From positions 186,001 to 250,000 of the forward strand of contig JAHDVF020001020.1 of the NCBI GenBank assembly GCA_022606425.2: a DNA stretch of 64,000 nt. The letters are read 5' to 3'. Below the pieces are notes generated by a model, which was not told where the DNA came from, made no database searches, and was given only the letters and a program-made list of their open reading frames with translations. The DNA comes from Lepidostoma basale. Lineage: Eukaryota; Arthropoda; Insecta; Trichoptera; Lepidostomatidae. Shown in pieces: positions 1,213 through 63,090 of this stretch. The number at the start of each line of letters is the position of its first letter. Positions within the stretch are counted from its first letter, which is position 1. The position numbers and the translations under genes are program-made.

Positions 1213-1395
1213 AAGCATAAACGTTCCAAAATAAATCTTTATAACATATGTCAAAACTGATCATATTTGTTAACAATTTGATAATATTTTAAATATGTAT
1301 CTTTATAATATATATCACTGAAGAAGGACTAATATTTAATTTAAATTGTAATAGTTAGTGTTGTACATACGAAGTAAATAATAAAGAAAAAGGCG
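1213..1395 (+). repeat. Partial copy of hammerhead foldback family B
   Basis: This matches the right half of the better copy at 3350-3535: both carry AAATAAATCTTTATAACAT, then a TATCACTGAAGA block, then the TAGTGTTGTACATAC-type end. The hammerhead core CTGAAGA is at 1318-1324 and GGAC follows, but the closing half of stem II and the GAAAC box are lost, so this copy is a relic. Confidence 0.6.
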
Positions 1396-1576
1396 AATAA
1401 TTTATAAATTCTCATCTAAATCTTAATGGTCATATTTATTTTCTAGATTCTGGACATTTCTTTAATATTAAATATTTACATTAGTTTTTTTTTTGCAAGT
1501 ACTGTCTTGACTTTATTCATATTAAAGGATCTTTTTATTTAATCAAATTCAATAGAATATTTCCTCCTTCTGAGAA

Positions 1577-1910
1577 TATTATGTAAATTGAAAGTGCTCT
1601 GAACTGTACCCAACTCTTGTATACCGCGGATCCCATTCATCCCAACCTCTCAATACATCAGTTCACGTTTGCTCTTTGATCAATTACTGAGAATCGGGGA
1701 CCAATACGGCATGAGAGATACTTATACCATTACCGAGTGAATGGATGGTGTCTCCCACCGCCCATTTTGCTCCGAGCTCGCAACAAATGCAACTGCGGGT
1801 GCTCCGTGGCGCGGGTATCTCCAGACACGTAAGTCTGCCTGGGTTAATGTAAGGCGACCGTAACAGGGAAACGATCTTTGAATTTCTGCTAGTGAGACCC
1901 ATTTTCTCAT
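1577..1910. other. GC-richer unassigned patch upstream of the mariner element
   Basis: Base composition is clearly less AT-rich than its surroundings. Two overlapping minus-strand frames cross it (1684-1977 and 1722-1910). I recognise no domain, and no second copy was noticed in the window. It could be a degraded element or an ancient exon. Confidence 0.3.
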
Positions 1911-1922
1911 TAAGTTGTTTTA

Positions 1923-2549
1923 TTAGGTCCTTACATATGAAATTGGCGTTTTGTCGTACTGGCAACTTTGATCTCAAATATCTTCTCTTTGGTTAGGAAT
2001 TCCAAATTCAAATTTATACAGCTATTTACTCAAGTATTTGTGTTTCGAAAATTATAATTAATTTGCTTTTTCCTCAATTGTTTTTTTTCTTTGCGTCACT
2101 CAGTTTATAAAATGGAAAACATGAAATATCGCGTTATTTACGAGTACGAGTTCCACCGTGGTACCAGTGCTGCTTCATGATAACGCTAGACCACACACTG
2201 CACAACAGACGGCTACCAAATTAGAAGAGTTTCAATTGGAATGTCTAAGACATCCATCGTACTCTCCGGACCTTGCCCCAACAGATTACTATTTTTTTCG
2301 AAATTTGGATAACTTTTTGCAAGGGAAAAAATTCAACTCCGATGGGGCAGTCCAAACCGACTTCAAACATTTTATTGATTCCCGTCCGAATGTTTTTTTT
2401 AGTAAAGGGATCGATGAACTACCTATGAGATGGCAAAAGTGCATAGATAGCAATGGTACATACTTTGATTAAATAAATATATTATATTAAAAAAAATCAA
2501 CTTTATGTTCCTCCCATTCAAAACGCCAATTTCATATGTAAGGACCTAA
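1923..2549 (+). mobile_element. Internally deleted mariner transposon with both terminal inverted repeats
   Basis: The ends are inverted copies of each other over about 30 bp, beginning TTAGGTCCTTACATATGAAA, and each is flanked by a TA dinucleotide (1921-1922 and 2550-2551), the target duplication of Tc1/mariner elements. The element is 627 bp, about half the usual 1.3 kb. A mariner-like start codon region at 2112-2159 is joined directly to the C-terminal catalytic part at about 2160, out of frame. It is a non-autonomous deletion derivative that could be mobilised only by transposase made elsewhere. Confidence 0.93.
2158..2472 (+). pseudogene. Mariner transposase, C-terminal catalytic remnant
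   Basis: The frame encodes the last third of a mariner transposase. LLHDNARPHTA holds the second catalytic aspartate and HPSYSPDLAPTDYYFF the third. I count 34 residues between them, the D34D spacing that defines mariner (DDE/D transposase cutting DNA at the terminal inverted repeats). The N-terminal helix-turn-helix region and the first aspartate are missing. The frame ends in the conserved mariner-type tail around WQKCIDSNGTYFD. The listed start is a GTG, not a real initiation codon. Confidence 0.92.
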
Positions 2550-2743
2550 TATGTTTGGCTGCAGATATTGTTTAGCAAAACATTTGAAAGACTTATTATA
2601 AGAAATAAAAAAATACACTCATTCTGCAAACGTGATTACGTAAAAAATAGTTAAAAAAAATAATTAATTGATATTTGTCTATTTCTTTTTTATAAACTTT
2701 ATATATACAACACTTATATTAAAAAATAAAATTACATAGACAT

Positions 2744-3294
2744 TGGTTATTGGAAATTACATAGTTATTGGAAACAAGAATTTATCAATGAAAGAAATGA
2801 GTGCTGGTCCCAACCTTAATGAATGGAAGCGAAGCATGGAACTGGCAGAAGAAAGATGAGAGCAGAATAAATGCGGTAGAGATGAGGTACCTAAGACGTG
2901 TGTGTGGTAGAACAATATACGACAGAATCTCAAATGCAGATATAAGAAAGGAATGTAGAGCAGAAGAAGGTATTATGAACAAAATTATGAAAGGATCACT
3001 GCGTTGGTTCGGACATATGGAACGCATGGATGGAGAAAGAATGGTTAAGAAAATATACGTAAATGATGAAATTGGGGTACGAAGTCGAGGCAGGCCGAGG
3101 AAAACATGGCATGACCAAATTAATCAAATTTTAAAGGTTGGTCGTGTTAGAAGTCGGAGGAATCGACGTGCGTGTATGACTCGCTGTATGAATGTGGAGG
3201 AATCTAGAGAGGTTCGCCAGGATAGAGTAGTGTGGTGGTTCATTTTCTCTGCCTACCCCTGCGGGAAAACGGCTTGATTGTTTGTTTGTTTGTT
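2744..3294 (+). pseudogene. RTE1 LINE, 3' fragment with GTTT tail
   Basis: The open frame 2801-3277 encodes the RTE1 C-terminus: LVPTLMNGSEAWNWQKKDES, LRWFGHMERM, RSRGRPRKTWHDQINQ and a terminal AYPCGKTA before TGA. It is followed by a (TTGT)n tail. The codons for the preceding stretch (VIGNKNLSMK) are at about 2763-2792, after which a short deletion shifts the frame. 5' truncated, with the 10-bp target duplication ACATAGACAT, it sits in foldback family B. Typical dead copy from target-primed reverse transcription. Confidence 0.9.
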
Positions 3295-3298
3295 ACAT

Positions 3299-3330
3299 AG
3301 ACATGTTTCGGACAAATAGTCCTTCTTTAG
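3299..3330 (-). ncRNA. Hammerhead-like motif (family B, left arm), one core base changed
   Basis: On the minus strand: CTAAAGA (3330-3324, against the hammerhead consensus CUGANGA), an extra A, a stem GGAC/GTCC with a 5-nt loop (3322-3310), GAAAC (3309-3305), AT, then GTC. The G5-to-A change would be expected to destroy cleavage. The stem is intact. Confidence 0.5.
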
Positions 3331-3432
3331 TTATACATACTCGTATTATAATTTCCAAAATAAATCTTTATAACATCTGTCAGATCATGTAAACAATTTT
3401 ATAATATCATTAAAAATGTATCTTTATAATAT

Positions 3433-3469
3433 GTATCACTGAAGATGGACTGTTGGTCCGAAACACGTC
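3433..3469 (+). ncRNA. Hammerhead-like ribozyme motif (family B, right arm)
   Basis: CTGAAGA (3439-3445) matches the hammerhead core CUGANGA. An extra T follows, then stem II GGAC/GTCC closing a 5-nt loop (3447-3459), then GAAAC (3460-3464), AC, and the cleavage triplet GTC (3467-3469). Stem III would be two pairs. Stem I is weak in this copy, unlike the copy at 60595-60638. Confidence 0.6.
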
Positions 3470-3535
3470 TATGTTATTTTATTTTTTAATATAAGTGTTG
3501 TATATACAAAGAATATAAAAAAGAAAAAGAGAAAT

Positions 3536-3844
3536 AAACCACCATAAGAACACAAAGTATGGCGTATATAGAATAAATTATTTATTATGTTAGATTTTTA
3601 GGAAACACATTTTTTTGTCTATAATATATTTCAATTGACATTAAAAGCCTATCTTTTATTATTGATTTTTTATAATGCGCCATTTAAAGAATGATCACTT
3701 CAATATTAATTAGTTATTTCATTAAAAGTTGTGGTTTTTATTTTGAAAAACTCCATTATAGATTATAATGAAAACGCGATTGCCCTATCGGTTTTAGTAC
3801 ACTAGTTATAGTACAAATAAATTTGTAATATATATTTATTTATT
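3536..3844. other. AT-rich spacer, nothing recognised
   Basis: No open frame of note, no motif, and no repeat shared with other parts of the window. Confidence 0.4.
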
Positions 3845-3889
3845 TGTTTATTGGAATGTTAAGGCGTTAATACTGCGGAATTCCGCAGT
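3845..3889. repeat. Terminal motif of repeat family F with perfect 18-bp palindrome
   Basis: AAGGCGTTAATACTG runs into the palindrome ACTGCGGAATTCCGCAGT (3872-3889). The same layout ends family F copies at 50400-50434 and 32155-32190, with different but still self-complementary bases. The RTE1 fragment starts immediately after it. Confidence 0.6.
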
Positions 3890-4380
3890 CTTCCCAAAGG
3901 GGTAGGCAAAAATAATGGACTACCACACTTTTCTTTCCTTACATATTTCTCTCGCTTCCTCAACATTCATACATCGTGTCATGCACGCGCGTCGATTTCT
4001 CGGACTCCTTACACGGCCGACATTCAATATTTGGTTTATTTGATCGTGTCACGTTTTCCTCGATCTTACTCTATTTCTGGTTCCATTTACATCGTTAACA
4101 TAAACTTATTTTACCATTCATTCATTATTCATTCTTTCCGTATGTTCAAACCATCTTAATGATCATTTAATTATTTTGTTCATAACACCATCATTCGTAC
4201 CGCATTCACTTCTTATATTTTTATTCGACACTCTATCATATACAGAGTATCCATACATTCATCTAAGAGATCTCATTTCTACTGCATTTATTCTACTTTT
4301 ATCCTTCTTTTGCCAGTTTCATGATTCGCTTCCATACATAAGGGTCGGTAGAAGAACACTATTTCCTTACATTCTTACAA
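3890..4380 (-). pseudogene. RTE1 LINE fragment, degenerate
   Basis: Read on the minus strand it gives the RTE1 C-terminal half, from the tyrosine-rich YGSEAW region through the MERM motif to the AYP terminus at the low-coordinate end. Stops and frameshifts are frequent, and the usual GTTA tail is missing because the end abuts the family F palindrome. The plus-strand frame 4176-4457 is only its antisense shadow. Confidence 0.8.
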
Positions 4381-5349
4381 AAAAAAGACTAGCGTTAAAA
4401 CAAATTACACAAGTATTTTTTAATATTTTTAATAATGCTATGCCACAAACTAATTGATTTTTTATATTGCGAAAGTATGCAGTTTATTCTAAAGGGACAT
4501 TTTTATGTCGTGTAAGAAGGGTCTGGAATCCGAATCGAGGGAAGTTGCGAGAAATCTTATTAAATGATATTATCTGTTGTATCGCCGTAAAAACCTACAT
4601 ATAACGGATTGTATATTAAAACTGATTGGGTCCCACATATCATTTTATTATGCCATCAACAAAACACTGAAACCATTGACATTCATTCGTTTTACGAACA
4701 TTTCCAGAACGCATCGTTTGTTTCGGGCGAGGAAGCCAGCGGCGCGTTTTCATATTTTATGTTCCGAGTTGCTAATAAAAAATTGGAAAATTATAAATGT
4801 ACGTGAGTGAGATATAAAGACACGTTTCCTTCAAACAATTTTACTTTTATTCCTCCCATAAAAGCGGGCGATATCTTTTATTTCTTCTCGTAAAAGACTA
4901 CCTTGCCTGGTCAACCGAGAGTAAGGGGTATGATTCGAATTTCGAAGATCAAACCGTCAAGTTCGAAAAATTTCAAACATATTTACGAGTATTATAAGAC
5001 GTTATCGTTGATGCGGTAAGTAAATTATTATTTACATAAAAATTCTTTAATTTTATTTGAAGACTATACCATATACATTAAATTCAATTCGCAGCTTCAA
5101 TACGGTGTATGAAAAATAATGAGTGAGCATTTTATGAATAAAATTATACACTGATATGATACTGAACGCAATGAGCTTTTTTGCATTTGAAATAATGCAT
5201 GTTTTAGTTTCTTTAAAAAAAAATTAATACATATCATTTGAAAAAAAAATTGATCAAATGACACTTTAAAAATCCTATTCTGTTCCACAAAAAAAAATGT
5301 TCAGAAAAATTATTAAAAATAGTACAGGTAGTTCTCTTTTAAGGGGTTT
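4381..5349. other. AT-rich spacer, nothing recognised
   Basis: Short frames at 4577-4810 (plus, two overlapping) and 5097-5288 (minus) have no recognisable motif. The stretch around 4680-4760 is somewhat GC-richer. No repeat partner was seen in the window. Confidence 0.4.
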
Positions 5350-5624
5350 ATTTATGGTTTCTTGAATACTGATACAAATTCTTTATTAAATACTTAATAT
5401 TAATGAAAACGTGTATTTTCTATGAGTTTTATTATATCATATATAAAGGACATGTTTCGCCTTTCTAAGGCATTATCAAATGTAGTTACATTTGATAATG
5501 CTATATGTCTAAGGCGAAATATATCATCCACAAAAATAATATTAAAATTTATTGAAAACAGATATTTTCATTCGTTTTAATTATTTAATATGGAGTTTTA
5601 CATAACTGTTCAAGAAACAATAAA
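5350..5624. repeat. Foldback MITE family A, copy 1
   Basis: Arms of about 130 bp face each other around 5480-5500. The outer end reads TTTCTTGAA...AATATGGAGTTTTACAT and the inner part GACATGTTTCGCC, TCTAAGGCATTATCAAATG and its complement. Both arms carry the hammerhead-like block TTGATAA, T, GCC-loop-GGC, GAAAC/T. At least a dozen full or half copies occur in the window. Confidence 0.8.
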
Positions 5625-5724
5625 TATGGAATATTCAAAACTTCGGAAAGAAGCTATTACTTGGTGGTTTGACGTTTTTAAAGTTAGAATTAAACACTTT
5701 TTAAAACGTTGTAAAAACCACTTT

Positions 5725-5885
5725 ATTTTGAGTCATGAGCGCCAACCGGTTTCACTCTGTAACGAGCTTTGTCAGGGCTATACACAAACTGTGTATAGAC
5801 ACAATGTTTATGTATAGCTCTGAAGAAGCTCGTTACAGAGTGAAACCGGTTGGCGCTCCTCACTCAAAATAAAGTGATTTTATAC
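5725..5885. repeat. Foldback family C with hammerhead-like motifs in both arms
   Basis: Left arm 5733-5780 and right arm 5815-5880 are inverted copies (AAACCGGTTGGCGCT and its complement, flanked by CACTTTATTTTGAG). The right arm, plus strand: CTGAAGA (5820-5826), extra A, stem GCTC/GAGT with a 6-nt loop, GAAAC (5842-5846), CG, GTT, with stem I of three pairs (5817-5819 with 5852-5854). The left arm, minus strand: CTGACAA, the same stem, and a perfect 3-bp stem I (5776-5778 with 5741-5743). Confidence 0.7.
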
Positions 5886-6848
5886 AACGTTTAAAAAAGT
5901 GTTTAATTCTATTTTTTATAGAATATTCAGATTACTTTTAATCGAGCTTTGCGGTAGAATAGTATGTTAGTTTTGGATAATTCAGAAACTATAATAGGTT
6001 TATTTTAATTGTTAGGGTAGAGTTAATCTTCAGTCGGCACAAGCCACTGCATAAATTTCCTCGACTGCAAAAATATTGATGCAACACAGAACTGTGTCGC
6101 AGAGATAACAGAACGAGAAAACAACATGGCGCCCAACAGACGCCATCTAACGGCACCAGGTGCAAGCAGCCCCCTGCTCCCCGCCTAATAATTTACTATT
6201 TTTGTTGCCCGAGCTTGCGTACTTCCAAACAATAAGTTCAGTTTCTCAGAATAATTCGTCCCAGAAGCGAAGTTTCTCCCAGAAAGTTCGACCATCAAAT
6301 CTTAAAAACTTTCTTTCCCTTGTATCTTTCCTAAGACATTAGAATAAACTTCAATTCTCTAAAATAAGCTGGGATAATCAGCGTTATTCAGCAAAGCTGA
6401 CAAAGGCTTTTTCATGCTGGCTGACATCTTAAATAAGACATAATGAATGCGGCGAATAAAAAAATATCGCGAGTTTTAAAACACAGATTTAAGGAAACAT
6501 TTTTTTGAGGAAAATAAATGAGAAACATTTTAATATAATAGACTCTGTGTTCTGTTCATTACATGACTTGTAACTTCTTATTTATCTTGGAACTTTATAC
6601 AGATATGGTCTTATGGCATTAGGGGATGTAGATGTCTGTGTATTGTTTGCGTCACCAAACTCTTATATTAAATAGATGTGACACTAAGTTCGACTTACAT
6701 ATAAATATATAGTAAAAAACATATTTACAAAGAAAATTAAAATGGAAATGCAGTCCTAATAACTATAATTGAATTGTAATTTTTTTTGTTAAATGTTTGA
6801 ATGAAAGCTTAGTTGAATTAATAATCGTCTGTTTATATAAGTTTAATT
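5886..6848. other. Spacer with a GC-richer patch at 6010-6180, unassigned
   Basis: No motif is recognised. The frame 6160-6342 has no domain. The hairpin ATGGCG...CGCCAT at 6126-6146 is short and isolated. Confidence 0.35.
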
Positions 6849-11463: not shown

Positions 11464-11700
11464 ATTTATTGTTTCTTGAACTATAAAACAGTATAATTAA
11501 ATGTAAAACTTTATAATTCCAAATTTAACTATATCATATGAATGAAAAAGAGTTTTTCTAGAAGTTTTATTACATTTGATTTAAATTACACTTTTCGCAT
11601 TGCCAAGGCATTATCGAATGTAGGATGTAATGTTCAAAAACATTTGACAATGACTTAGCAAGGCGAAACTTGCTATTGCTATAAAATCTTTTAGAAAACA
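11464..11700. repeat. Foldback MITE family A, copy 2 (old)
   Basis: Recognisable from TTATTGTTTCTTGAA, TTCTAGAAGTTTTATTA and AAGGCATTATCGAATG with an inverted second half ending TTTTAGAAAAC. It is the most diverged full-length copy and suggests that the family has been present for a long time. Confidence 0.65.
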
Positions 11701-13940: not shown

Positions 13941-13998
13941 ACTAACTAACTAACTAACTAACCATCACGCCGTCTCCCCAAAAGGGAAGACAAAAATA
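13941..13998 (-). mobile_element. RTE1 LINE stub (3' terminus only)
   Basis: AACTAACTAACTAACC then ATCACGCCGTCTCCCC, the complement of the RTE1 end and GTTA tail. Only about 35 bp of element plus tail was copied. It abuts hammerhead family K. Confidence 0.8.
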
Positions 13999-14009
13999 CT
14001 GTTACTACT

Positions 14010-14105
14010 GTAACACCTGATGATGCTAACAACGGTTGGCGAAACAGCTGTCGCGATACTCTAAGTAAATAAAAATAAATTGTGATATTATAACAGTGTT
14101 TTAAA
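14010..14105 (+). repeat. Hammerhead repeat family K, copy 1
   Basis: Shares CACCTGATG, GGTT.GGCGAAA.AGCT, the GATA.TAATAAGTGTTTTAAATTTAA-type end and position next to an RTE1 tail with the copy at 15655-15850. Confidence 0.6.
14017..14052 (+). ncRNA. Hammerhead-like ribozyme motif (family K1)
   Basis: CTGATGA (14017-14023) is an exact hammerhead core. An extra T is followed by stem II, six consecutive pairs between 14025-14030 (GCTAAC) and 14035-14040 (GTTGGC) around loop AACG. Then GAAAC (14041-14045), AGCT and GTC (14050-14052). Stem III can pair as AC/GT. Stem I is weak (two of the first four positions). This is the best core and stem II match on the plus strand. Confidence 0.65.
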
Positions 14106-15044
14106 TTTTAACAGTAATAAATATGTATTATAAATACATTTTTTATAAAACAAATATTCTCTATAATTATATATTCTTTTCAATACATATTTAAACATTT
14201 GTAGAAAAAAGACCTCAATAAACGCGTTATAAAAACATATTCGTTTATAAAACTTCAATATAGTGGATAAGGTATACGTTTCTATTTATGCTTATATAGA
14301 AAAATTTCAGATATAATATACATTCAGAATATATACCTCCTCGTTTTTCGTACATTTTTCACGCGGATCGCATTTCTCTAGCATCCATCCCACTTTCGCT
14401 CCTCTTCTCTTCTCCTGTCACAGCCGCTAGTTTGTTATGACGCCCCAGATATTAAGTATTGTTTGAGGTTCAGGTGCTGTGACAACTTTAGTGTTACGTG
14501 TGAGTAACACATAATAATTTCCACGAAAGGATTTCTCCAAGTGATGAATTTTACACCCTGCCGGAATGTGTAAATGGGTCAGTATAACGTGCTCCTCTGA
14601 GTAAATATAGAGAGTAAAGGGTTCCTTAACAAAGCATACACAATACAAAAAATAACTGCGTACTCTGTCCAGAATGAACGTCCTTTCGGATATCATATCC
14701 GGCTACAAAAAGCTCACGTTTTGTCGTTATTTAGACACATTGCTGCCCAGATATATTACCGAGATATTCAGGAATACACTTTTTTTGGGATGTTTTTATG
14801 TTAAAAACTCCCATTAAGTAGTGTTATCTATTGTAGGATATTTCAGGGACTTACAACGTTTATATCATTAATTATTTTTGTAAGAATAAAGAGAAAAATG
14901 CTTTCGCTCTCAACTACAATTACAATTTATCACAAGTATCACTTTATAAATTAAATATTTTTTATCAGCAGAAATAATCAATTTTGCAACGTATCTTATC
15001 TTAAGTATGAAGAATAAAGTAACAATAATTTGTCAAAAAACACT
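14106..15044. other. Unassigned stretch with a minus-strand coding-like frame at 14427-14696
   Basis: The 89-residue minus frame contains LTHLHIPAGCKIHHLEKSF and RNTKVVTAPEPQ. Composition is more balanced than its neighbourhood. I do not recognise the family. It could be a retroelement polyprotein scrap or a host exon. No splice or promoter evidence was found. Confidence 0.3.
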
Positions 15045-15480: not shown

Positions 15481-15654
15481 ACGCCAGTATTTTTGCTATG
15501 GTATCAAATACTTGTGTTCATTTGATTTAATTTATCAAAAGTTGGGTTCAAAGCTTAACTTTCGTAAACTTATTATAAGATAATCCATTATTTTAGTCGA
15601 CACACTATGATACATCAATATACCTATCGGTTAAAATTTAAAGCACTCTTATTA

Positions 15655-15850
15655 CGTATCACGATTTATTTATAGTTTGTCGCATTGACTGATTCGTCAT
15701 CATCAGGTTGTTTGTAACACCTGATGGTATCAACATTTGTTGTTTATAATACCAAATGATGTCAACATAGGTTTGGCGAAATAGCTATCGCAACAAACTC
15801 GTCTAAAAATACGTGATACGTAATAAGAGTGCTTTAAATTTAAACATTTT
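15655..15850. repeat. Hammerhead repeat family K, copy 2 (foldback)
   Basis: TTTGTCGCATTG...CATCATCAGGTTG on the left is the inverse of CCTGATG...CGCAACAAAC on the right. In the right arm, GTCAAC/GTTTGGC forms stem II, followed by GAAAT, AGCT and ATC (15778-15789). Compared with copy 1 (GAAAC, AGCT, GTC) both partners of a stem III pair have changed (C-G to U-A). The right-arm core (CAAATGA) is degraded. Confidence 0.55.
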
Positions 15851-15892
15851 ATAAACATGTTACATATAATCATTGCCTTAGAAAATTATAAA

Positions 15893-17107
15893 AAACTAAC
15901 TAACTAACTAACCATCACGCCATTTCCCCGGAGGGGTAGGCAGAGAGGATGGATCGCCACACTGGCCTGTCCTGGCACACCTCTCGGGCTTCCTCCACAT
16001 TCATACACCGCACCATGCACGCACGTCGATTATTCCGACTTCGAATGTGGCCGCCTTTTAGTAATTGGTTAATTTGGTCATGCCATGTTTTCCTCGGTCG
16101 TCCTCGGCTTCTTTTCCCACTCACACTGCTTGTGTACAACTTTTTAACCATTCTACTCTCATCCATTCGTTCCATATGTCCGAACCATCTCAGGGATCCT
16201 TTTTTAATTTTATTCATGATGCAGTCATCTGTCTTACATTTATTTCTTATTTCATCGTTCGGTATTCTATCATACAGCGTTTTCCCGCACATTCTTCTTA
16301 GTAATCTCATTTCTACGGCGTTTATCCTGCTTTCATCCTTTTTTTGCCAGCTCCAAGCTTCACTTCCATACATGAGGGTTGGCACTAAAACTCCATTGTG
16401 TACAGCCATCTTTGCTTCTGTGGATATATTTCTATTTGCAGTAATGACTTTGAGTGCGCCATTTATTTTATTCCCAGCACCAACCCTCCTTTCGATGTCT
16501 TTCTCCATTTTTCCGTCTCTTGTAAACATGCTTCCCAGATACGTAAATTCAGTAACTTGCTCCAATTTCTCGCCCATCGCACTTATATCACAAATCGTCA
16601 TACATTCTTCTTTCTCGAAAACCATCACTTTAGATTTAGACACATTCATCACCAAGTCACTCTTTTTGCATGCCTCATACATCCTTGCCACTAAGACTTG
16701 CAAATTGTCTTTACTGTCAGCGATTAACACAGCATCGTCTGCATATAACAAACAGCTGACTGACAAACAATTCATCTTAGCACCAGCGTCTATGCCTTCA
16801 AGTTCTTTCATACACTTGTCCAAGTATAGATTGAACAACCACGGGGACATCACACAACCCTGTTTGACACCTTTGGTGATGTCAAACCAAGATGTGACAG
16901 CCCCATTAACCCTGACACAAGCGGTGCTTTGCTCATAGAGGGATGCGACCGCGCCCACTTTTGTGCCCACTCCATACTCGGCCAAGACCTTCCAAAGTTT
17001 TTTCCTATCAACTCGGTCATACGCTTTCTGCAGATCCACAAACGCACAGAAAAGTTTTCGGTCCTTGGCCAATACCTTCTCTGTTAGACTGCGGAGTGCG
17101 AAAATCT
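15893..17107 (-). mobile_element. RTE1 LINE, longest uninterrupted copy, GTTA tail
   Basis: The 3' end (low coordinates) carries four GTTA repeats after GGCGTGATG. The 5' end is truncated inside the reverse transcriptase gene near 17107, at the IFALR motif. About 1.2 kb remain, and the reading frame is intact throughout, so this is one of the youngest copies in the window. Family K foldback lies directly beyond the tail. Confidence 0.93.
15915..17072 (-). pseudogene. RTE1 reverse transcriptase, N-terminally truncated open frame
   Basis: The frame has 385 residues. FVDLQKAYDRV (from residue 11) is the first palm motif, GVKQGCVMSPWLFN (68-81) the template-grip region, and YADD (110-113) the catalytic site of reverse transcriptase. 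YLGSMFTRDG and DIERRVGAG follow, then VLVPTLMYGSEAW, LRWFGHMERM, RSRGRPRKTWHDQINQ and the AYPSGEMA terminus. Family knowledge: LINE polymerase for target-primed reverse transcription. The endonuclease domain and the first part of the polymerase are missing, so it cannot retrotranspose alone. The ATG at 17072 is internal; coding continues upstream to about 17105. Clade assignment as RTE-like is tentative. Confidence 0.92.
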
Positions 17108-19355: not shown

Positions 19356-19650
19356 CATTAATAAAGGTTTTCTACTTAATGCTTACACCTTATCCTAATA
19401 GATGGCGCTAGTGTAGATTGAACAAAAATGTGAAGTGTTTCCCAACATTGTAGCATATATACATACATCTTCCAAAAATCTGTCAGACGTGGTGGTCGTA
19501 AGAAGGGCATGGGAATGTTGTTAACATAAAGCGATCGCTCAACCCAACCAATGACAGGTCATGAGTCCTGTAAACGCCTCAACCACCATATTCTGTTTCC
19601 TAAAAACAATTTACATCTTCGTCTCTATTGAGATACAATCAATCCTTTAA
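19356..19650 (+). repeat. Dispersed repeat R3, copy 1
   Basis: Homologous to 35650-35974. Shared blocks include AGATGGCG.TAGT, CAACCCAACCAATGACAGGT, CTGTAAAC.CCT, CAACCA.ATTC.GTTTCC and TTCGTCTCTATTGAGATACA. The second copy sits in a 600-bp insertion with an 11-bp target duplication, so the family is mobile. Its class is not clear. Confidence 0.7.
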
Positions 19651-19845
19651 TACCAATATTTAAAATTAGTAAATTTTACAAAATTATTTTAAGATTATTT
19701 TTGTATAAAATCATGTTTGATCTGTATGTATATAAAGGACTCAGTTTACAATAGTGTCACCACTCTGTCAATCCCATCGAGCCTGGCGAAACCGGTCGCT
19801 GTCGAAATAAAGACGGTGGAAGTAGTTAAAAAACCATCGTTTTAT
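19640..19845 (+). repeat. Hammerhead repeat family G, copy 2
   Basis: Matches 30625-30830 in inverse orientation, including TCTGTATGTATATAAAGGAC, AGTTTACAATAGTGT, CCTGGCGAAACCGGTCGCTG and AGTGGAAGTAGTTAAAAAA (allowing mismatches). The hammerhead block (19765-19797) has CTGTCAA, a partly lost stem II, GAAAC, CG, GTC, so it is less intact than the 30.6-kb copy. Confidence 0.75.
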
Positions 19846-19849
19846 TCAA

Positions 19850-20175
19850 TTATTATTCTTATTTTAAAAGATCTGACGATCTGTGGCACAGAAGTCGTGT
19901 CTTCTGGGATGATGAGTTCCAACGTCTCTCCATCTTTTAGGTGGACTGTGTCTGGAAGGGATTTGCTAAGCGGCTGTATATGTGAGTCTCTCACCAGTAT
20001 CGTCTTCTGGATCTACTCCACCAAACGATATCCTCTATTTCGCAAGTTTTTAGCTAATGCCTGCGTTACGGACACGATCTCGGAGAGTTTTTCCAGTAAA
20101 GCATTTTACGATCTTCAAATGTTCTTAGCAGACCCTTGGTTCGTACAGTGTCGGCCCGTTATGAGTACTTAATAT
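19850..20175 (-). other. Degraded coding-like segment of unknown family
   Basis: On the minus strand one frame runs LEKLSEIVSVTQALAKNL, NRGYRLVE, stop, IQKTILVRDSHIQPLSKSL, then DGETLELIIPEDTTS. The amino acid composition looks real and there is only one stop. I cannot name the family. It lies directly downstream of family G copy 2 and could be part of the same larger element. The plus-strand frame 19717-20172 is its antisense. Confidence 0.35.
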
Positions 20176-20825: not shown

Positions 20826-21060
20826 CATAACAATTCTTGAACAATGATGTAAAACTCCATATTAAATAATTATTTTGAATGAAAACGTCAGTTTTCTAGA
20901 AGATTTATTATATTTTTTTGGGAATGACGTGTTTCGCCCTTCTAAGGCATTATCAAATGATAATTTTGATAATGTCTTAGAAGGGCGAAACATATCATTC
21001 CCATAAAATATAATTAAACTTCTAGAAAACTGACGTTATCATTCGTATTAATTAATTATA
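20826..21060. repeat. Foldback MITE family A, copy 3
   Basis: Well-preserved inverted arms with CGTCAGTTTTCTAGAAG on the left and CTTCTAGAAAACTGACG on the right. Each arm carries TTGATAATG, a short stem and GCGAAAC.TRTC. A tandem second copy follows after about 10 bp. Confidence 0.85.
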
Positions 21061-21069
21061 AACATATTG

Positions 21070-21312
21070 ATCTTTCTCGAACAATAATGCAAAACTCCAT
21101 AATAAATAATGAATACGAGTGAAAACTTCTGTTTTCTAGAAGTTTTATTATATTGTATGTGAATGACATGTGTCGCCTATCTAAGGCATTATCAAATGCA
21201 TTATATTATTAATTATTTGGTAATGCCTTAGACAGCCGTAACATGTCAGTCACATAAAAGATAATAAAACTTCTAGGAAACGGACTTTTTTATTTGTATT
21301 AATCATTTTAAT
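21070..21312. repeat. Foldback MITE family A, copy 4
   Basis: Directly repeated neighbour of copy 3 but more diverged (TGTGTCGCC, GACAGCCGTAACATGTC). Independent divergence suggests two insertions or an old tandem duplication. Confidence 0.8.
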
Positions 21313-22345
21313 ATAATTATTTCCTATTAGTACATTGTTAACAGGAACATAATTTGTTGTGACTATTAACTATGTTATATTTATATTGCTACGCGCGGGG
21401 CTTACATTTATTTGTTGACATAATTTATGCCTCTTTATACTGGATTTAGGAAAAATTCTACAGAATAAAAGAAGAAGACTTTTGAATTCAGTCTTATTTA
21501 GGTGCGGAGTTACTCCAAGAGCGTTACTTCATTGATATATTTGCCTTAAGATAATCGACAATACGGTCCGCAGATTCTTTAGTACATTTTCCTCGGTTTC
21601 TTCTTTTACTTTTCACCTTTAAAAATCTTATTCGCTTGAATGTATTGGTTTGTTCGCTGGGTGGCGCACTAATGACTGCCCCCATTCGTTACAAGTGATC
21701 CGTAAAGAGCGAATAAAATAACAATAAATCAAACCCAACAATAAAAGTGTACGCGTTATCTATATAAGCAACATTTCAAATTATGTGTTTAATTTATCAC
21801 TTTTTATTATTTCGATTATATTTCGGTAGCTTTTGTATAGTCGCGTTTTCTGAAATTATTCTTCGAGGTCTCCTCTTCAATTTTGTTCGTTTTCTTCCTC
21901 CGTCTAACTGTAGTCGATATATTGAAATAAATGGTTTGGAATTCATTATTCATAATGGTCTGTTGCCAAAACACGAGAGGAATGCGCTTTTTGTTCGCTT
22001 TTTAACAGGAAATTGGTCGACTGAACATTTTTAAGGGTATACAAAACACAAAAATGTTTCTCCAACAACGAAATTTATAATAATTGGTACAAAAAATTCA
22101 GAGATAAACTTTTCGGGTTTCAAAGGAGGTGCGCAGAAATTGCGCATAATTATTCGAAATTTGAATTATTTTAAATTTAATTTTCCAAAACGTTGTCTTT
22201 CTGTTTCATTTTATAATTCTTATTAAAAAAATACGATTAACATTAAAAAAAAGATAACTGATGGTTGCGGTTTTATTATGGTAAAACTCTATTATATAAT
22301 TAATGTTTAATGAAAGTTCGAATGCTTTTTGGTTTAAATTTGATT
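21313..22345. other. Spacer, nothing recognised
   Basis: The frame 21783-22034 (plus, 83 residues) has no motif. The rest is AT-rich. Confidence 0.35.
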
Positions 22346-24945: not shown

Positions 24946-25045
24946 AAAACGATATTGTTTAAATAATTCCACGTTCGTCTTTATTTCGATAGTGACCGGT
25001 TTGGCCAGGTTCGATAGTATCGAAAGACTGGTCTGTCGATGCGTA
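24946..25045 (-). repeat. Hammerhead repeat family G, copy 3 (relic)
   Basis: TAGTGACCGGTTTGGCCAGG and AGACTGGTCTGTCGATG match family G. The core and GAAAC box are both mutated (CTTTCGA, CAAAC). Confidence 0.5.
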
Positions 25046-32190: not shown

Positions 32191-32239
32191 AATAATATAT
32201 GTTGTTTTACGTATTACTACTATTATAAATTAAATTGTA

Positions 32240-42526: not shown

Positions 42527-42894
42527 AACTGAGAAATGGAAGTCTCAAAAAACACGAATGCAGAATAAATGCAGTGAATGTAATATAATATTTTTAGATG
42601 GATGTGTTGTCTTCATACGATCATTTTATTAATTTGAGTTTTTCTTTTTTTTAAATTCACGAATGCAGTCTGTTTTGATAGATATTAAAATGACCGGTCA
42701 AATTAGTCAAGCGAGTAGTCAGAGAAATGAATGTGCGTGAACGGAATATTTTTATAACCTACTATACATATCTTGGAAAATCAGTTTCTTGCGCATGCAC
42801 GTCGATTTATCTATTTTCTAAAGTTTAATTGATGATGAAGTCATGTTTTCTCGATATTTCTAGATTCCGTGTTCTATTAACATCGAGTGATTAT
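42527..42894. other. AT-rich spacer, faint RTE1-like traces
   Basis: CACGTCGATTTATC near 42798 recalls the antisense RTE1 segment CACGCACGTCGATTTTTC, but the surrounding sequence does not align well. Confidence 0.3.
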
Positions 42895-43041: not shown

Positions 43042-43286
43042 ATTTATTGTTTCTTGAACAATGATGTAAAATTCCATATTAAATAATTAATACGAATGAA
43101 AACGTCAGTTTTCTAGAAGTTCTATTATATTTTATGGGAATGACATGTTACATCCTTCTTAGGCATTATCAAATGCTTAGTCAAACATTTCAAACATTAG
43201 ATAATGCCTCAGAAGGGCGAAACATGTCATTCCCATAAAATATAATAAAACTTCTAGAAAATTGACGTTTTCATTCGTATTAATTG
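43042..43286. repeat. Foldback MITE family A, copy 7 (good copy)
   Basis: Outer ends TTTATTGTTTCTTGAACAAT and CGTTTTCATTCGTATTAATT, inner hammerhead-like blocks in both arms. One of the best copies for building a consensus. Confidence 0.85.
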
Positions 43287-43953: not shown

Positions 43954-44428
43954 AATTTGTTTCTTGAAAAATGATATAATACTTCACATAAAATAATTAA
44001 TACGAATGAAAAACGTCTGTTTTCTAGAAGTTTTATTATAATTTATGAGAATAACATATTTAGCCATTCTAAGGCGATGTCAAATTATATTATTATATAT
44101 ATTTTATCAAGGAGAATAGTATGAGCTGCTGCACTTGATTATTAAGGTTATAATAGAGGGTCGTCGAAGTATGCGAACAAGACGGATCTCTTGGCTCTGG
44201 AACATTTGTGACTGGACTGGGATTGGAAAAGTTAAGGCACTATTTAAAACTGCGCAAGACATGCACTCCCAAGTAATAGTTGATGTCGGAGGAACCGACA
44301 AGATACACGAAGAATAAAAATATCAAATTACAAATGGACATTTGAAAATGCCTTAGAAAGGCAAAATACGTAAATCTCAAAATTATTATAAAATTTCTGG
44401 AAAAACAGACGTTTGTATAGTATTAATT
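43954..44428. repeat. Foldback MITE family A, copy 8, interrupted
   Basis: Left arm 43954-44084, right arm 44336-44428. Between them lies a LINE fragment, so an insertion split this copy at its loop. Confidence 0.75.
44100..44320 (+). pseudogene. LINE C-terminal fragment inside MITE A copy 8
   Basis: Frame 44135-44317: MIIKVIIEGRRSMRTRRISW, LWNICDWTGIGKVKALFKTA, then VDVGGTD. This is the WLxNxxDWTGxxxxxLFKTAQD terminus of a LINE ORF, the same type as 37136-37395. Confidence 0.75.
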
Positions 44429-50130: not shown

Positions 50131-50394
50131 TAAAGTATTTAAAACCAACGTTTTTCCTATAAGGAACAAATAGGAAATTAAAAAAAAAAGGTTTTAAGTG
50201 AAAACGCTAAAATTACGAAGTGTTGATATTTTTTGCATGTTTGTAGAATTATTTAATAATAGTTTTTACTTGTTTCCAGATAATAAGTGATTTTTTCTTC
50301 GCAAGCTTTTGTAATAATTTTTCTATATTAAAATAAAGTAACACTACAATTTAATTAATTTAGATCGATAAAATAAATACATAATAATATATCT

Positions 50395-50640
50395 TATTGA
50401 ACGCTAAGGCATTAACACTGTGGAATTCCACAGTATTGTACTTAGGAAATTGAAAAACTTTGTTTAATCCACAATTTAAAAAAATATATTAAAAACACGA
50501 CATGTTTCTGAGAATACATCCATCTTCAGGTGTAAAAATATTATGTTTTTCGTGTACTCCAAAATATATCGTGTTTTTTAATATTTTTTATTAAATAGTG
50601 AATCAAACAAAGTTTTTCAATTTCTTAAGTATCTGTAAAT
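50395..50640. repeat. Repeat family F, foldback copy 4
   Basis: Starts TTGAACGCTAAGGCATTAAC and the perfect palindrome ACTGTGGAATTCCACAGT (50417-50434). Then come TTTGTTTAATCCAC and the hammerhead block (50496-50533, minus: CTGAAGA, GAAAC, AT, GTC, stem I ACAC/GTGT), then the inverted arm to 50620. Confidence 0.75.
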
Positions 50641-55555: not shown

Positions 55556-56085
55556 TAGAGCATGGAACTGGTAAAAATAATAATAGAAGTAGAATTAACG
55601 CAGTAGAAATGAGATCTCTTAGACGAAACTGTTATAAAATCTATACATGATAGGGTATCAAATGCAATGTTAGATATGAATATAGTGCGAATAATACTAA
55701 ACTTGTGAACAAAATCATGAACGTTGAGAAGTAATTAATACGAATGAAAACGTCAGTTTTCTAGAAGTTTTATTATATTTTATGGGAATGACATGTTTCG
55801 CCCTTTTAAGGCATTATCAAATGTCATTTGATTTGCCTTGACATTTTTGCCTTTGCATTTGATAGTGCCTTAGAAGGGCGAAACGTGTCATTCTCATAAA
55901 ATACAATAAAACTTCTAGAAAACTGACGTTTTCATTCGTATTATTTTTTTAATATGGAGTTTTATATCATTGTTCAAGAAACAATAAATATATCGAGAGA
56001 AGTATGTTATGAATGAAGGGTGTGGCGTTCAATTCTTTATGTCTACCCCTTAAGGAGACGGCGTGATGGTTATTCAGTTCATATA
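55556..56085 (+). pseudogene. RTE1 LINE fragment split by MITE A
   Basis: 55556-55731 corresponds to the SMELV...SRINAVEMRSLRR, DRVSNA and NKIMN region. 55988-56085 resumes at the RE-VC region and ends GGAGACGGCGTGATGGTTAT. Part of the coding region between them is deleted as well. Confidence 0.75.
55732..55990. repeat. Foldback MITE family A, copy 11 (good copy)
   Basis: Well-preserved arms. Minus block: TTGATAA (55820-55814), T, GCC, loop, GGGC, GAAAC (55799-55795), AT, GTC (55792-55790). Plus block: TTGATAG (55859-55865), T, GCC/GGGC, GAAAC, GT, GTC (55887-55889). Inserted in an RTE1 fragment. Confidence 0.88.
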
Positions 56086-56554: not shown

Positions 56555-56757
56555 AAATATCGTTTTTTTAATGGAATAACATGTATCGCCCTTTTAAGGC
56601 ATTATCAAATTAAATTAATTTGATAATGCCTCAGAAGGGCAAAACATGTCATTCCATATGTATGGTATATAAAAGAAAACACCTTAAAGACAGACATTTT
56701 CATTCATATTAATTATTTAATATGGAGTTTTGCATCTTTGTTCAAGAAACAATAAAA
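56555..56757. repeat. Foldback MITE family A, copy 12
   Basis: ACATGTATCGCCCTTTTAAG to its inverse TCAGAAGGGCAAAACATGTC around a short AATTTAATT-type loop. The right outer end TTAATATGGAGTTTTGCATC is intact. Confidence 0.8.
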
Positions 56758-59860: not shown

Positions 59861-60540
59861 TGGATATACGTCATCCGCTTCACCCACTATCTTCTTTCGC
59901 CTTCCACATTCCGTCACCCTTCCCTAACATTCATTAAGTCGTTGGGATGCATCCTTTTTAATGTCCCAGCCATGGTCTATTGACCGTTTTTCTACCTCCT
60001 GGGTGCCCATTTAATTTTTGTTTGGGATTTGTTACGATAGCATTAGCTCTAGACTAAAATATCACGGGTATGCTATTTGGCAATTTTTAAAGATATTTTT
60101 GAGTCAGTTGAACTATCATTATAGTCACCACCTCACAAAAACGAATACAATGTTTTAAGAATTTGATGAGGTGTTAATAATGGATTTAGTATTACAAATG
60201 ATACAATAGATTTATTCTGAATACGATATAATTAACAAAACATGACCTTATGTAAAGGTTATGAAACAACACTGTTCGAATGTTATGTAAGTTGGATACG
60301 TGTATGTAACACTGCAAATTGAAGTTTATCGAATAATTCCCACGGGAGTTTATCGAAAGCCCGTAGTTTTTACGGGTTCTACACTACTAACCTAACTTGT
60401 CTGCGGACAAATTCCACAGAAATTCTGCCTTAAAGTATTTCAGTAGAGTAAGATAGAAAATATTTCAAGATTTGAAACTTTTATAGTTATGTTGAAAAAA
60501 TGTAGTAGGTACCTATTAAAACATATAAGGATTTGTCATT
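59861..60540. other. Unassigned stretch
   Basis: 59860-60010 may be the antisense of another LINE end but is too degraded to name. The rest is AT-rich with no motif. Confidence 0.3.
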
Positions 60541-60594
60541 TTCTTTTTTTATATACTTTTTTTATATACTTTGTATACAACACTATTAAAATTA

Positions 60595-60638
60595 CATATC
60601 AGACAGGTTTCGGACAACCAGTCCTTCTTCAGTGATAC
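60595..60638 (-). ncRNA. Hammerhead-like ribozyme, most complete copy (family B)
   Basis: Minus strand, 5' to 3': stem I GTATCA (60638-60633), core CTGAAGA (60632-60626), one extra A (60625), stem II GGAC/GTCC around TGGTT (60624-60612), GAAAC (60611-60607), CT, cleavage triplet GTC (60604-60602), and TGATAT (60601-60596). TGATAT pairs with stem I over six positions, the outermost a wobble. All invariant core positions are present. Stem III can form only two pairs (AC/GT), as in the minimal hammerheads of Penelope-like elements, which are thought to cleave as dimers. The extra nucleotide after the core recurs in every family here. Confidence 0.75.
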
Positions 60639-60645: not shown

Positions 60646-62778
60646 AACTAACTAACTTACCATCACGCCGTCTCCCCGGAGGGGTAGGCAGAAAGAATGG
60701 AATGCCACACTGTTCTGTCCTGACATACGTCTCTCGCTTCCTCTACATTCATACATCTTGTCATGCACGCACGTCGATTTTTCCGACTCCTCACGTGACC
60801 GACATTCAATATTTGATTGATTTGATCGTGCCACGTTTTCCTCGGCCTTCCTCTATTTCTAGCTCCGTTCACGCCGTTTACATATACCTTCTTTACCATT
60901 CTGTCTTCACTCATTCTTTTGATTGGTGGGATAGTTGCCTTATGAAATGAGTTAAAACAATATTTTTAATGTATTATTTTATTTTGTCACAATTATGTCA
61001 CAATCATTTTCGGCCCTTAAAACTAACATTATAATTCAGTTTAGCAATTTTATACCTAATATTTTATACGAAAGTTTTTTTTTTCATTTGCAAAAGTTTA
61101 GCCCGTCTACATTGATTACAGATATTTCCGTACAAAGTGCAACTCTTGAAGCCACTTCCTGCATATAATACGAGTACATTGTATCCAATCCACCTAAGAT
61201 TTTTCCGGTAATTTTCAAAACATTCCACGCATTCATGGTTACTTTATTCATCTTCATCACTATCTTCTGAAACTACTCTAGGTGTTTTTTTGACAGTAAT
61301 GAAGTTATCTGCACTTCAGATAAGGTACGTTGTTTGCTATTTTTGCATAACAAGCGTGGGTTGGCTTTACCATTAACTTTATTTTCCTTTGCAGAAATAT
61401 TTTCTTTAGTGGTCAGTAGGTACTGCAGCCGATTGCTTCCCTCTCTTGTATAATGGCATATAGCGTTTTTAAGAACATCTTCGGTCCATATGGCTCTTGG
61501 TCTTGCTCTTCCAATTTTGCGTACGTATTTGCGTAGAATTGCTGGAAAATAAAAACGCTGAATTAGTGTGGGATAGATGCCCCTAAGGGCAACTATACTC
61601 ACGAAGACTGGGGCATCTATCCTTTTTGGAGGGGATAGACGCCTTTAAATATATAAAATAAGTTAACTGAAAAAAATACTAAATCACAGTACAATCTTTG
61701 CATTTAGTGTATACATTGATCGTAAACATAAAAATATTATCACTTACCTCATACGCTCAAAAGTTCCGAGCGAAATGATAAAGTAGGAAATCGGAATCCA
61801 GCAATCGTTCGAGCGTAATCACCTATTTAACAAGTTCCTCACTCACACGACCGTCACAACGCGATTCACTGGGCACCCTGGCGGAGAGTGGGGTAGAGCT
61901 TTGTTATAAAGTCAAAATCGGCAGTGTTAGTATGCATAATAGTTATGCATGTCTCGATATGATAATCGTGGCATCTATCCCCCTGTGGCATCTATCCCAC
62001 TTTTACCCTACTTGCATTTGTCACTCTATCATATACAGATTTGCCACACATTCGTCTTAGAGATCTCATTTCTACTGCATTTATTCTACTTTCATCCTTC
62101 TTTTGCCAGTTCCATGCTTCACTTCCATACATAAGGGTCGGCACAAGAACACCATTGTGCACTGCCATCTTAGCTTTTTGGATAGGCTTTTGTTTGCGAT
62201 GACAACTTTAAGTGCACCATTTATTCTGTTGCCTGCCCCAACCCTTCTTTCAATATCCTTCTCCACCCTCCCATCATTTGTAAACATACTTCCTAAATAA
62301 ACAAATTCATCCACTTGTTCCAGATTTTCACCGTTTACACTAATGTTGCAGACTGTCATGCTTCCTTCTTTTTCGAAAATCATTACCTTAAACTTATTCA
62401 CATTCATCATCAAATCGTATCGCTTGCATACCTCATACATACTAGACACCAGGGCTTGCAGTTCATGCTCGTTGTCTGCAAGTAGCACAGCGTCGTCCGC
62501 ATACAACAAACAGCTTACTGACACACCTTCCATTTTTACACCTGCTTCCAACCCTTTCAGCTCTTTCATACACTTGTCCATATATAGATTAAACAACCAT
62601 GGAGACATTACACACCCCTGTTTGACACCTTTATTGACATCAAACCAGGCTGTAAGATCCCCATTTACTCTGACACTAGCAGTGCTTTCTGTGTACAGCG
62701 ATGTAATTGCCGTGATCAGTTTTGTGTTTATTCCATATTCCGACAATATTTCCCACAGTTTACCTCTATCTACGCGAG
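60646..62778 (-). pseudogene. RTE1 LINE, split copy, GTTA-type tail
   Basis: 3' part: 60646-60918, with frame 60663-60914 (RMVKKVYVNGVNG, RGRPRKTWHDQINQ, AYPSGETA). 5' part: 62010-62778, with frame 62081-62746 (GVKQGCVMSPWLFNLY, LLYADDAVLLAD, YLGSMFTNDG) plus KSVYDRVTNAS. About 30 codons between the parts (KGSLRWFGHMER) are missing where the pogo-like element sits. Truncated at the DRVDRGKLW motif. Confidence 0.88.
60919..62009 (-). pseudogene. pogo-like DNA transposon inside RTE1, internally deleted
   Basis: Terminal repeats: GTGGGATAGTTGCC (60926-60939) and, inverted, GGCATCTATCCCAC with TTTTACCC (61987-62008). GGGATAGATGCCCC-like motifs recur just inside (61567, 61607, 61635, 61969). The minus frame 61273-61602 has RKYVRKIGRARP and IWTEDVLKNAI, a psq-type helix-turn-helix start. 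61060-61290 gives HECVECFENYRKNLRWIGY then CTLYGNICNQC, the cysteine-rich C-terminus of pogo-type transposases. The DDE catalytic core is deleted. Confidence 0.78.
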
Positions 62779-62833
62779 TGATACATATTATAAAGATACA
62801 TATTTAATATTTTAAATATGTATTTTTGTAATA

Positions 62834-62862
62834 TGTATGACGGCGTGATGGTTAGATAGTTA
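62834..62862 (+). mobile_element. RTE1 LINE stub (3' terminus only)
   Basis: GACGGCGTGATGGTTAGATA then GTTAATAAATTA: about 15 bp of element plus tail, ending the family B arm. Confidence 0.6.
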
Positions 62863-62917
62863 ATAAATTAATAAAATAATAATTAGTAATTTGTATTAAC
62901 ACCACTTTATTTGGTAA

Positions 62918-62957
62918 CACCAACCGGTTTCGCTCCCACCGGAGCTTCGTCAGAGTG
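62918..62957 (-). ncRNA. Hammerhead-like ribozyme (family D, left arm)
   Basis: Minus strand: stem I CACT (62957-62954) pairs with GGTG (62921-62918) over four positions. Core CTGACGA (62953-62947) matches CUGANGA. An extra A is followed by a perfect 5-bp stem II GCTCC/GGAGC around GGTG (62945-62932), GAAAC (62931-62927), CG and GTT (62924-62922). GUU is an allowed but slower cleavage triplet by family knowledge. Confidence 0.7.
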
Positions 62958-63007
62958 AGAGAATAAACCGTTCAGTTTATAATCAGAGAATAATCAGTTA
63001 ATTCTCT

Positions 63008-63047
63008 CATCCTGACGAAGCTCCGGCAGGAGCGAAACCGGTTGGTG
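63008..63047 (+). ncRNA. Hammerhead-like ribozyme (family D, right arm)
   Basis: Stem I CATC (63008-63011) pairs with GGTG (63044-63047). Core CTGACGA (63012-63018), extra A (63019), stem II GCTCC/GGAGC around GGCA (63020-63033), GAAAC (63034-63038), CG, GTT (63041-63043). The stem I strand differs from the left arm (CATC against CACT), yet both pair with GGTG. Confidence 0.7.
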
Positions 63048-63090
63048 TGACCAAATAAAGTGGTGTTAATACAATTTATTAAAAGTGTAT

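Follow-up and report, generated by a model that had tools for sequence, protein, structure and literature searches.

Hammerhead-bearing foldback repeats of Lepidostoma basale as likely ends of Penelope-like elements

Why should repeat families that differ in sequence carry one and the same small ribozyme motif? The question is raised by a 64,000-nt stretch of the genome of Lepidostoma basale (Trichoptera; 768.8 Mb assembly GCA_022606425.2, contig JAHDVF020001020.1, positions 186,001 to 250,000), hereafter the window, within which there are many short palindromes. A preliminary description had reported at least nine unrelated foldback families sharing one hammerhead-like plan, and had taken the ribozyme to be the common requirement for their spread. 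Our analysis indicates that the shared motif is an RNA structure and that the hammerhead families are likely the ends of Penelope-like elements (PLEs). We consider it quite probable that their foldbacks arise when the PLE enzyme primes reverse transcription from both cut strands of one target.

The window was scanned with a strict descriptor (CTGANGA, 0-1 nt, a stem II of at least 3 bp, GAAAC, 2-4 nt, GTH). Seven exact matches were found, versus none in each of 20 first-order Markov shuffles, and 11 when up to one core mismatch was allowed, versus 0-2 per shuffle (20 shuffles); the arms of a palindrome contribute paired, non-independent matches to these counts. A bare motif, in which stem II was not demanded and the core variants C4, N6 and U3/A8 were admitted post hoc, gave 77 matches, 51 of them distinct, in the window and 27 fetched loci (258,759 bases; L006 excluded because of overlap), versus 0-2 in each of six shuffles. 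A stem II of at least 3 bp was present in 36 of the 51 distinct matches when one nucleotide was placed between A9 and the first pair, and in 4 of the 51 with no spacer after A9; the hammerheads of this genome have an extra A or U between A9 and stem II. Helix III, as judged by eye, consists of an A-U and a C-G pair around a 2-nt loop in most families, with a 4-nt loop in K. The motif has the makeup of a type I hammerhead, with a core CUGANGA...GAAA...GUH, three helices and an opening at helix I. Chance resemblance was rejected, since both the shuffles and the reversed-pattern controls described below were near zero. The Rfam hammerhead models found nothing in the window at the gathering score or at E-values up to 5, nor in positions 62870-63100 at E-values up to 10, and two exact motif patterns each had no match in viral contigs. 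The Rfam matches that fell on palindromes (62870-63100 and others) were mostly to microRNA families, all below the curated cut-offs; such palindromic pieces are a possible source of false microRNA annotation and could be filed as miniature inverted-repeat transposable elements (MITEs).

Eight families (A to G and K) fit the hammerhead plan, while the ninth, H, does so only weakly, departing from the arrangement of one nucleotide followed by the stem; the count of at least nine is thus upheld for eight. The letters A, C and H were assigned in this analysis, with no locus-by-locus correspondence to the letters A, C, L and M of the preliminary description implied. That the families share a plan with differing yet pairing stems II was borne out by the seven exact matches, and the stem II pairs quoted for individual families were all found (hammerheads starting at 3439 (+) in B, 63012 (+) and 62922 (-) in D, 32284 (-) in E, 30672 (-) in G and 14017 (+) in K, and 24435-24482 in F). 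The CUGANGA-like core holds for B, C, D, F and K, which keep the conserved C3, A6 and G8. The other families are core variants: the core of A and H is TTGATAA (U3 and A8 in A) and that of G and E is CTGTNGA (U6). Many copies are foldbacks, as had been described, alongside single copies in families G, K, B and A (Table 1). The K foldback at 15630-15845 has a broken motif on either side, and the right arm of the E foldback shows a second core change. The families are probably related to one another: C and D share 68.6% identity (E = 2e-5) across a stretch of 118 nt that takes in the motif, and the families look like divergent PLE lineages, which may have inherited one motif.

Covariation was counted by scripts on stems placed by hand, a MAFFT alignment across families having misplaced K. 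The set comprised 16 rows, with two or three rows for some families; H, which does not fit, was omitted. In stem II, 63 of the 64 positions were paired (permuted mean 36.9, maximum 53), and in stem I 46 of 64 (permuted mean 27.5, maximum 44), values that none of 20,000 permutations attained. When each of ten families was reduced to a single row, stem II was paired at 40 of 40 positions and stem I at 30 of 40, the latter being reached once in 20,000 permutations. For stem II, part of the rows had been retrieved by requiring that very stem and were thus preselected for pairing; because of this, stem I, which had no role in match selection, and the genome-wide stem-loops are the cleaner tests. 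The genome-wide set was taken from the first 100 places listed, on two contigs, with a pattern that fixes the first stem II pair only. The three free pairs were formed in 165 of 189 cases over 63 distinct stem-loops, two shorter ones having been dropped, versus 99.4 (maximum 123) after permutation, with none of 5,000 permutations reaching the observed value. Stem I was weak in A (2 of 4 pairs) and in B from the window (1 of 4). The U3-A8 families taken alone covary weakly (147 of 174 pairs versus 136.4 after permutation, reached by 1 of 5,000), because most copies belong to one family. Covariation of stem II and stem I supports the shared motif as an RNA structure, and thereby the reading of between-family covariation in the preliminary description. 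In minimum-free-energy folds of single arms, stem II was present for D and A and absent for G, and the single arms of D, G and A showed no clear folding gain over shuffles (z = -0.49, -0.14 and -1.17, respectively). When most of the D foldback was folded in silico, its two arms paired together and no hammerheads formed.

Exact patterns were then counted genome-wide on both strands, each alongside its reversed form as a control; the G copies (CTGTCGA) and K with its longer loop fall outside these patterns. The C3-G8 core gave 24,847 matches (control 2) and the U3-A8 core 18,501 (control 6), versus 1,871 for U3-G8 (control 12) and 2,101 for C3-A8 (control 3), so that the two matched pairs made up 43,348 of 47,320 matches. 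At least two stem II sequences accompany the U3-A8 core (GCCUU/AGGGC and GGUUAC/GUAACC), one family being dominant. The C3-G8 pair is known from mutants and is seen in hammerhead crystal structures. In a PLE of Anolis, C3G or G8C abolishes cleavage and the double change rescues it partly (PMC11167929). The presence of U3-A8 in 18,501 copies, versus the rarer single changes, provides large natural support for pairing between positions 3 and 8. From the pattern counts, the hammerhead core may have evolved a natural U3-A8 form of its active-site pair, a reading whose chances, taken jointly with the two-strand insertion and leader by-product proposal set out below, we put at about even. Our literature search, which covered few subscription papers and is therefore a weak negative, found no report of a natural U3-A8 hammerhead or of hammerhead foldbacks of this kind.

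The second variant, U6, was found in all 30 G motif matches of the window and the 27 loci (27 identical, 3 near-variants), A6 being present in one G-like place elsewhere (C49:60175). A natural change at the same position, A6C, strongly lowers magnesium-dependent cleavage in other hammerheads, according to the available part of PMC7151607. The inverted arms of nine inserts of the G element (PLE-G, below) are 97.5-99.8% identical, and a U6 core in a PLE with near-identical arms calls into question whether cleavage is selected. A further hammerhead family, observed in L021 (7351) and L023 (6420), has the core CCGANGA (U4 to C) and a stem II GAAGG(U)/(G)CCUUC, with a stem I of 5 bp in L021.

The preliminary description had advised looking for a Penelope reverse transcriptase (RT)/GIY-YIG open reading frame (ORF) beside the repeats. 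A genome search for the GIY-YIG domain returned 62 places, several as inverted pairs, from which 20 stretches were chosen, inverted pairs first. L027 contains a frame of 758 aa in which RVT_1 (E = 1.3e-13) precedes GIY-YIG, which is the architecture of PLEs (PMC11167929), and both domains were also found in L011 and L014. Homologs of the L027 frame share its domains, e.g., a 1,283-aa protein of Phthorimaea operculella (43% identity). Among the best 120 of 1,327 homologs, the nearest named ones were from moths and butterflies (P. operculella, Euphydryas editha), then from other insects. A search of solved structures returned one weak RT match only. In L027 and L011, RT, endonuclease and G hammerhead stand together. 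The G hammerhead lies 3' of GIY-YIG on the same strand in 14 of the 20 stretches, nine of which have a further G hammerhead, in antisense, at the opposite flank, and the G copies of the window are 3' ends of this PLE-G element. Inverted F arms enclose GIY-YIG in L004, L005, L025 and L026, and in L028 an F hammerhead lies downstream of GIY-YIG on the same strand. In a B-like family (L033), arms of 662 nt that are 99.8% identical both encode the endonuclease end. A C-like hammerhead (C2) was observed in L019 after the endonuclease of another PLE, amid PLE-G pieces. The expected gene, a single ORF with RT and C-terminal GIY-YIG bearing these ends, was thus found for G, its endonuclease part for F and the L033 type, and, weakly, for B. 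For A, C, D, E, H and K we infer PLE membership: A, D, E, H and K are placed with the PLEs because of the shared plan, and A and D also because of the tail rule described next.

Among neighbouring hammerheads within 2 kb of each other (first 100 places listed), 10 of 15 pairs faced outward and three were direct. The arms of A and G end at two alternative fixed outer ends, about 45-50 nt apart, the longer version carrying a tail; the bins for both ends were set after inspection. In PLE-G, 29 of the 58 arms ended at reference positions 3838-3862, 22 at 3885-3910 and seven elsewhere, and in A 20 of the 56 arms ended at 100-122, 23 at 145-160 and 13 elsewhere. There were 21 outward-facing G pairs, 17 of which could be classed, and 16 of these 17 had one end of each kind, the exception (L024, 2979-3208) having a tail on neither side. 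In A, 9 of 13 classed pairs, from a total of 21, had one end of each kind. One arm extended beyond position 150 and the other stopped at or before 121 in six of seven F pairs (read from alignment rows; exception L026), and the one-tail rule was observed in 4 of 4 inserts of D, 4 of 5 of B and 1 of 2 of the L033 type, L029 and L036 having supplied the tail queries for these three counts.

These outer ends bear on a self-priming explanation, offered for rotifer Penelopes (PMC3846280, in the part available), by which a single cDNA, or an antisense RNA, folds back and is copied into a head-to-head palindrome. The near-perfect palindromes of L009 (2,282 nt) and of the turn in L010, and the very short centres of many A copies (1-20 nt in several), would be compatible with it. 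However, the 16 one-tailed G pairs include L009 and L010, and self-copying needs identical outer ends on both arms, so that it is disfavoured even for symmetric inserts. Moreover, the arms of nine PLE-G inserts (L009-L013, L016-L018 and L024, in this order) were truncated 2, 231, 920, 316, 31, 532, 870, 327 and 736 nt apart; six of the nine are asymmetric, with differences of 316-920 nt, and in L010 it is an extra 31-nt inverted piece that renders the turn symmetric. We therefore regard self-priming as unlikely.

When arm ends from BLAST were taken as boundaries, direct repeats at the flanks were at background level for nearly all window palindromes; the signal improved once the two kinds of outer end served as boundaries. 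In 29 picked inserts (19 G, 10 A), compared with 600 random placements, direct repeats scoring at least 9 were found for 13 inserts (11 of 19 G, 2 of 10 A) versus 7 placements, and those scoring at least 11 (about 11-13 bp) for 9 inserts versus 2 placements. The inserts thus present the inverted terminal repeats and optional single tail expected of a PLE and, in part only, its target-site duplications (TSDs). Direct repeats at some flanks, together with palindromic form and high copy number, would also suit MITE-like DNA transposons with terminal inverted repeats, in which the hammerhead would be a passenger or a chance resemblance. Against this, the outer ends of the two arms differ by 45-50 nt, the motif is not due to chance according to the shuffle and reversed-pattern controls, and the G and F ends adjoin RT/GIY-YIG or GIY-YIG genes, which contradicts the explanation for F and G; we hold it to be very improbable.

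The inner ends of the arms were also recurrent. In A, 27 of the 56 arms begin at positions 22-24, at most 3 nt before the core, including the single arms at 42395 and 11512, and in further loci, selected because they held hammerheads close together or a tandem array, 24 of the 31 A matches begin at 22-25. In PLE-G, 25 of the 58 arms extend past the query, and seven of the other 33 begin at 3747-3748, which is 30 nt after the start of a TATA box (TATATAAA, at 3718) and 6 nt before C3. The inner arm ends likely correspond to the 5' end of the RNA, as predicted from the position of the TATA box. Several families have an ATG that includes A9 of the core (CTGANGATG), and by our own count the distances from this ATG to the two putative start sites downstream of it are about 80-90 and 125-140 nt, close to the 111-118 nt reported for Anolis (PMC11167929).

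A third explanation, of the retrozyme type, would have hammerhead cleavage yield small circular RNAs that are reverse transcribed, the ribozyme being required for spread. Retrozymes sit as tandem units, and a tandem array of family A hammerhead units of 134-135 nt each was observed in L044 (G000:C1:1463500-1465200); the unit length is close to that of one full A arm with its tail, and the array might stem from template jumping or from a circular RNA. Animal retrozymes are, in the part of PMC7229834 available, non-autonomous repeats with type I hammerheads, as are the repeats described here, and they yield small circular RNAs. Yet a circle is not expected to yield inverted copies, outward-facing pairs being the commonest neighbours here; the units do not end at the cleavage site but beyond it on the downstream side and ahead of the core on the upstream side; and G carries U6 and A carries U3-A8. 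A retrozyme-like origin thus appears quite unlikely.

Priming from both cut strands by a PLE enzyme, the reading that we prefer, could operate as follows. The outer ends would mark two positions at which reverse transcription of the RNA begins, a different one for each DNA strand, and the two cDNAs would be joined via short homology or filler. If started in the second (3') terminal-repeat copy, a cDNA would run into the coding region and produce a long insert, whereas one started in the first copy would soon run up against the RNA 5' end, which lies a few nucleotides upstream of the hammerhead, and produce a tiny foldback. One mechanism would thereby explain both tiny and long inserts. In its full form, namely two reverse transcriptions per target, one per strand and from distinct fixed starts, which, when both fall in the 5' leader and proceed to its capped end, would leave thousands of tiny by-product foldbacks, the proposal is evenly balanced between being right and wrong when taken together with the evolution of the U3-A8 core. 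The insertion of PLEs, with their inverted ends, single tail and retained hammerhead, is described as little understood (PMC11167929), and tens of thousands of countable copies offer a testable rule: one start site per strand, with inner ends at the 5' end of the RNA.

The idea that hammerhead cleavage is the common requirement for this mode of spread did not find support in these sequences, because 18,501 copies have U3-A8, PLE-G has U6, and hammerhead mutants of the Anolis PLE inserted normally in vitro, like the wild type (PMC11167929). The hammerhead may instead be conserved as part of the PLE leader and terminal repeat, perhaps as a structure that the PLE protein recognizes, rather than for cleavage at each insertion.

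Hammerheads in PLEs were reportedly described by Cervera and de la Pena in 2014, and a 2017 paper is said to have reported variants acting as dimers. As cited in the available parts of PMC6155905 and PMC7229834, PLE terminal repeats carry a minimal type I hammerhead in which helix III is almost absent, the same form as here; in comparison with what these parts describe, the present hammerheads occur in tens of thousands of copies, many as short non-coding foldbacks, and with a swapped U3-A8 pair. The enzyme of the PLE of Anolis carolinensis (PAc) cuts and extends both target strands and begins reverse transcription at a pair of neighbouring internal sites, between which the tail lies (PMC11167929). 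The hammerhead of PAc lies at the junction of the pseudo-long terminal repeat (pLTR) and the ORF, which begins at stem II, much as the ATG lies at A9 here; inverted tiny inserts are not described in the available text on PAc, unlike here (PMC11167929). In the rotifer Adineta vaga, Penelopes have inverted pLTRs arranged head to head, one of which carries a 31-bp tail, and are flanked by TSDs of 8-10 bp (PMC3846280, in part). The pLTR with a TATA box and an initiator, and the palindromes at junctions, are further likenesses; in contrast, self-priming is the explanation given there, the hammerhead goes unmentioned in the main text, and tiny foldback families do not appear in the part available (PMC3846280).

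Several observations weigh against the derivation of all these families from PLEs by two-strand priming. The F loci have the endonuclease part only, with no RT domain seen; for B, the endonuclease C-termini encoded upstream of same-strand hammerheads in L035 and L036 are both weak matches (E = 1.5e-4 and 3.4e-5); C is tied to a PLE gene only through the look-alike C2; and for A, D, E, H and K no adjoining PLE gene was seen. No coding remnant of a PLE turned up in the window itself (122 queries), no G hammerhead was found near the domain in 6 of the 20 picked GIY-YIG stretches, and a strict scan of L001-L008 found hammerheads only in L004 and L008. As for the ends, the one-tail rule fails in 4 of the 13 classed A pairs (two tailless, two double-tailed), eight A pairs and four G pairs could not be classed, and L039 has both tails; moreover, the Anolis enzyme shows no strand preference between start sites in vitro, whereas here most classed inserts have one end of each kind (PMC11167929). 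Truncation is near-equal in L009, L010 and L013 (3 of 9), as self-priming would give, and most window palindromes are without a clear TSD. The transcription start is predicted from the TATA box alone, and the shared inner ends could partly mark where decayed copies stop aligning, although one arm with such an inner end, in L024 (3846-4001), is 99.4% identical and is paired with an arm that reaches into the ORF.

The hammerhead repeats of the window are listed in Table 1.

Table 1. Hammerhead repeats in the window. HHR, hammerhead ribozyme motif; strands of individual arms and motifs in brackets.
Feature	Positions	Strand	Remarks
B single copy	1213-1400	+	Reaches upstream of hammerhead; 3' half of hammerhead missing
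B foldback	2672-3536		HHR antisense 3300-3330 (-), sense 3439-3469 (+); right arm longer, tail right only; left arm split by LINE fragment (about 2741-3290)
A foldback	5349-5627		Arms 5349-5482 (-), 5486-5627 (+); tail on both, against the one-tail rule
C foldback	5680-5916		HHR 5744-5775 (-, one core mismatch), 5820-5851 (+)
A single arm, decayed	11512-11620	-	
K single copy	14011-14140	+	HHR 14017-14052
K foldback	15630-15845		Both arms carry a broken motif
G, 3' end of PLE-G	19644-19857	+	Reference 3623-3848
A foldback	20834-21053		Tail on left arm only; arms begin at positions 22 and 24
A foldback	21064-21314		Tail on left arm only
F arm with tail	23495-23666	-	Hammerhead decayed
F foldback	24378-24944		Arms 24378-24498 (-), 24820-24944 (+, tail); cores decayed; centre partly resembles stretch upstream of PLE-F hammerhead
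G foldback	24942-25148		Left arm stops at reference 3748 (predicted RNA start); right arm consists solely of tail
G, 3' end of PLE-G	30607-30956	-	91% over 370 nt; HHR 30672-30704
E foldback	32229-32446		HHR 32284-32320 (-, U6); right-arm motif with second core change
H palindrome	35372-35529		Weak hammerhead-like motif (TTGATAA, GAAAT); evidence weak
A single arm with tail	42395-42527	+	
A foldback	43042-43285		Tail left only; exact 12-bp flanking direct repeat ATATTTTCTAAT
A foldback	43957-44428		Tail left only; centre of 253 nt
F foldback	50361-50631		HHR 50499-50529 (-); tail on left arm only; left arm is F reference
A foldback	55733-55990		Tail right only; right arm is A reference
A foldback	56567-56756		Left arm short; right arm with tail
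B single copy	60531-60638	-	HHR 60602-60632
D foldback	62862-63102		HHR 62922-62953 (-), 63012-63043 (+); 20-nt D-tail match right only

Within or beside the hammerhead repeats, we observed 3' ends of non-LTR (long terminal repeat) long interspersed nuclear elements (LINEs), RTE-like by eye, at 2741-3290, 13944-14001, 15883-15942 and 60646-60755, the first of which has a repeat of about 12 bp (TTACATAGACAT) at its edges. Palindromes with no hammerhead motif were found at 38144-38219, which is nearly perfect with arms of about 30 nt, and at 27870-28164. Finally, positions 2125-2472 contain a remnant that resembles, by eye, a mariner-like transposase.

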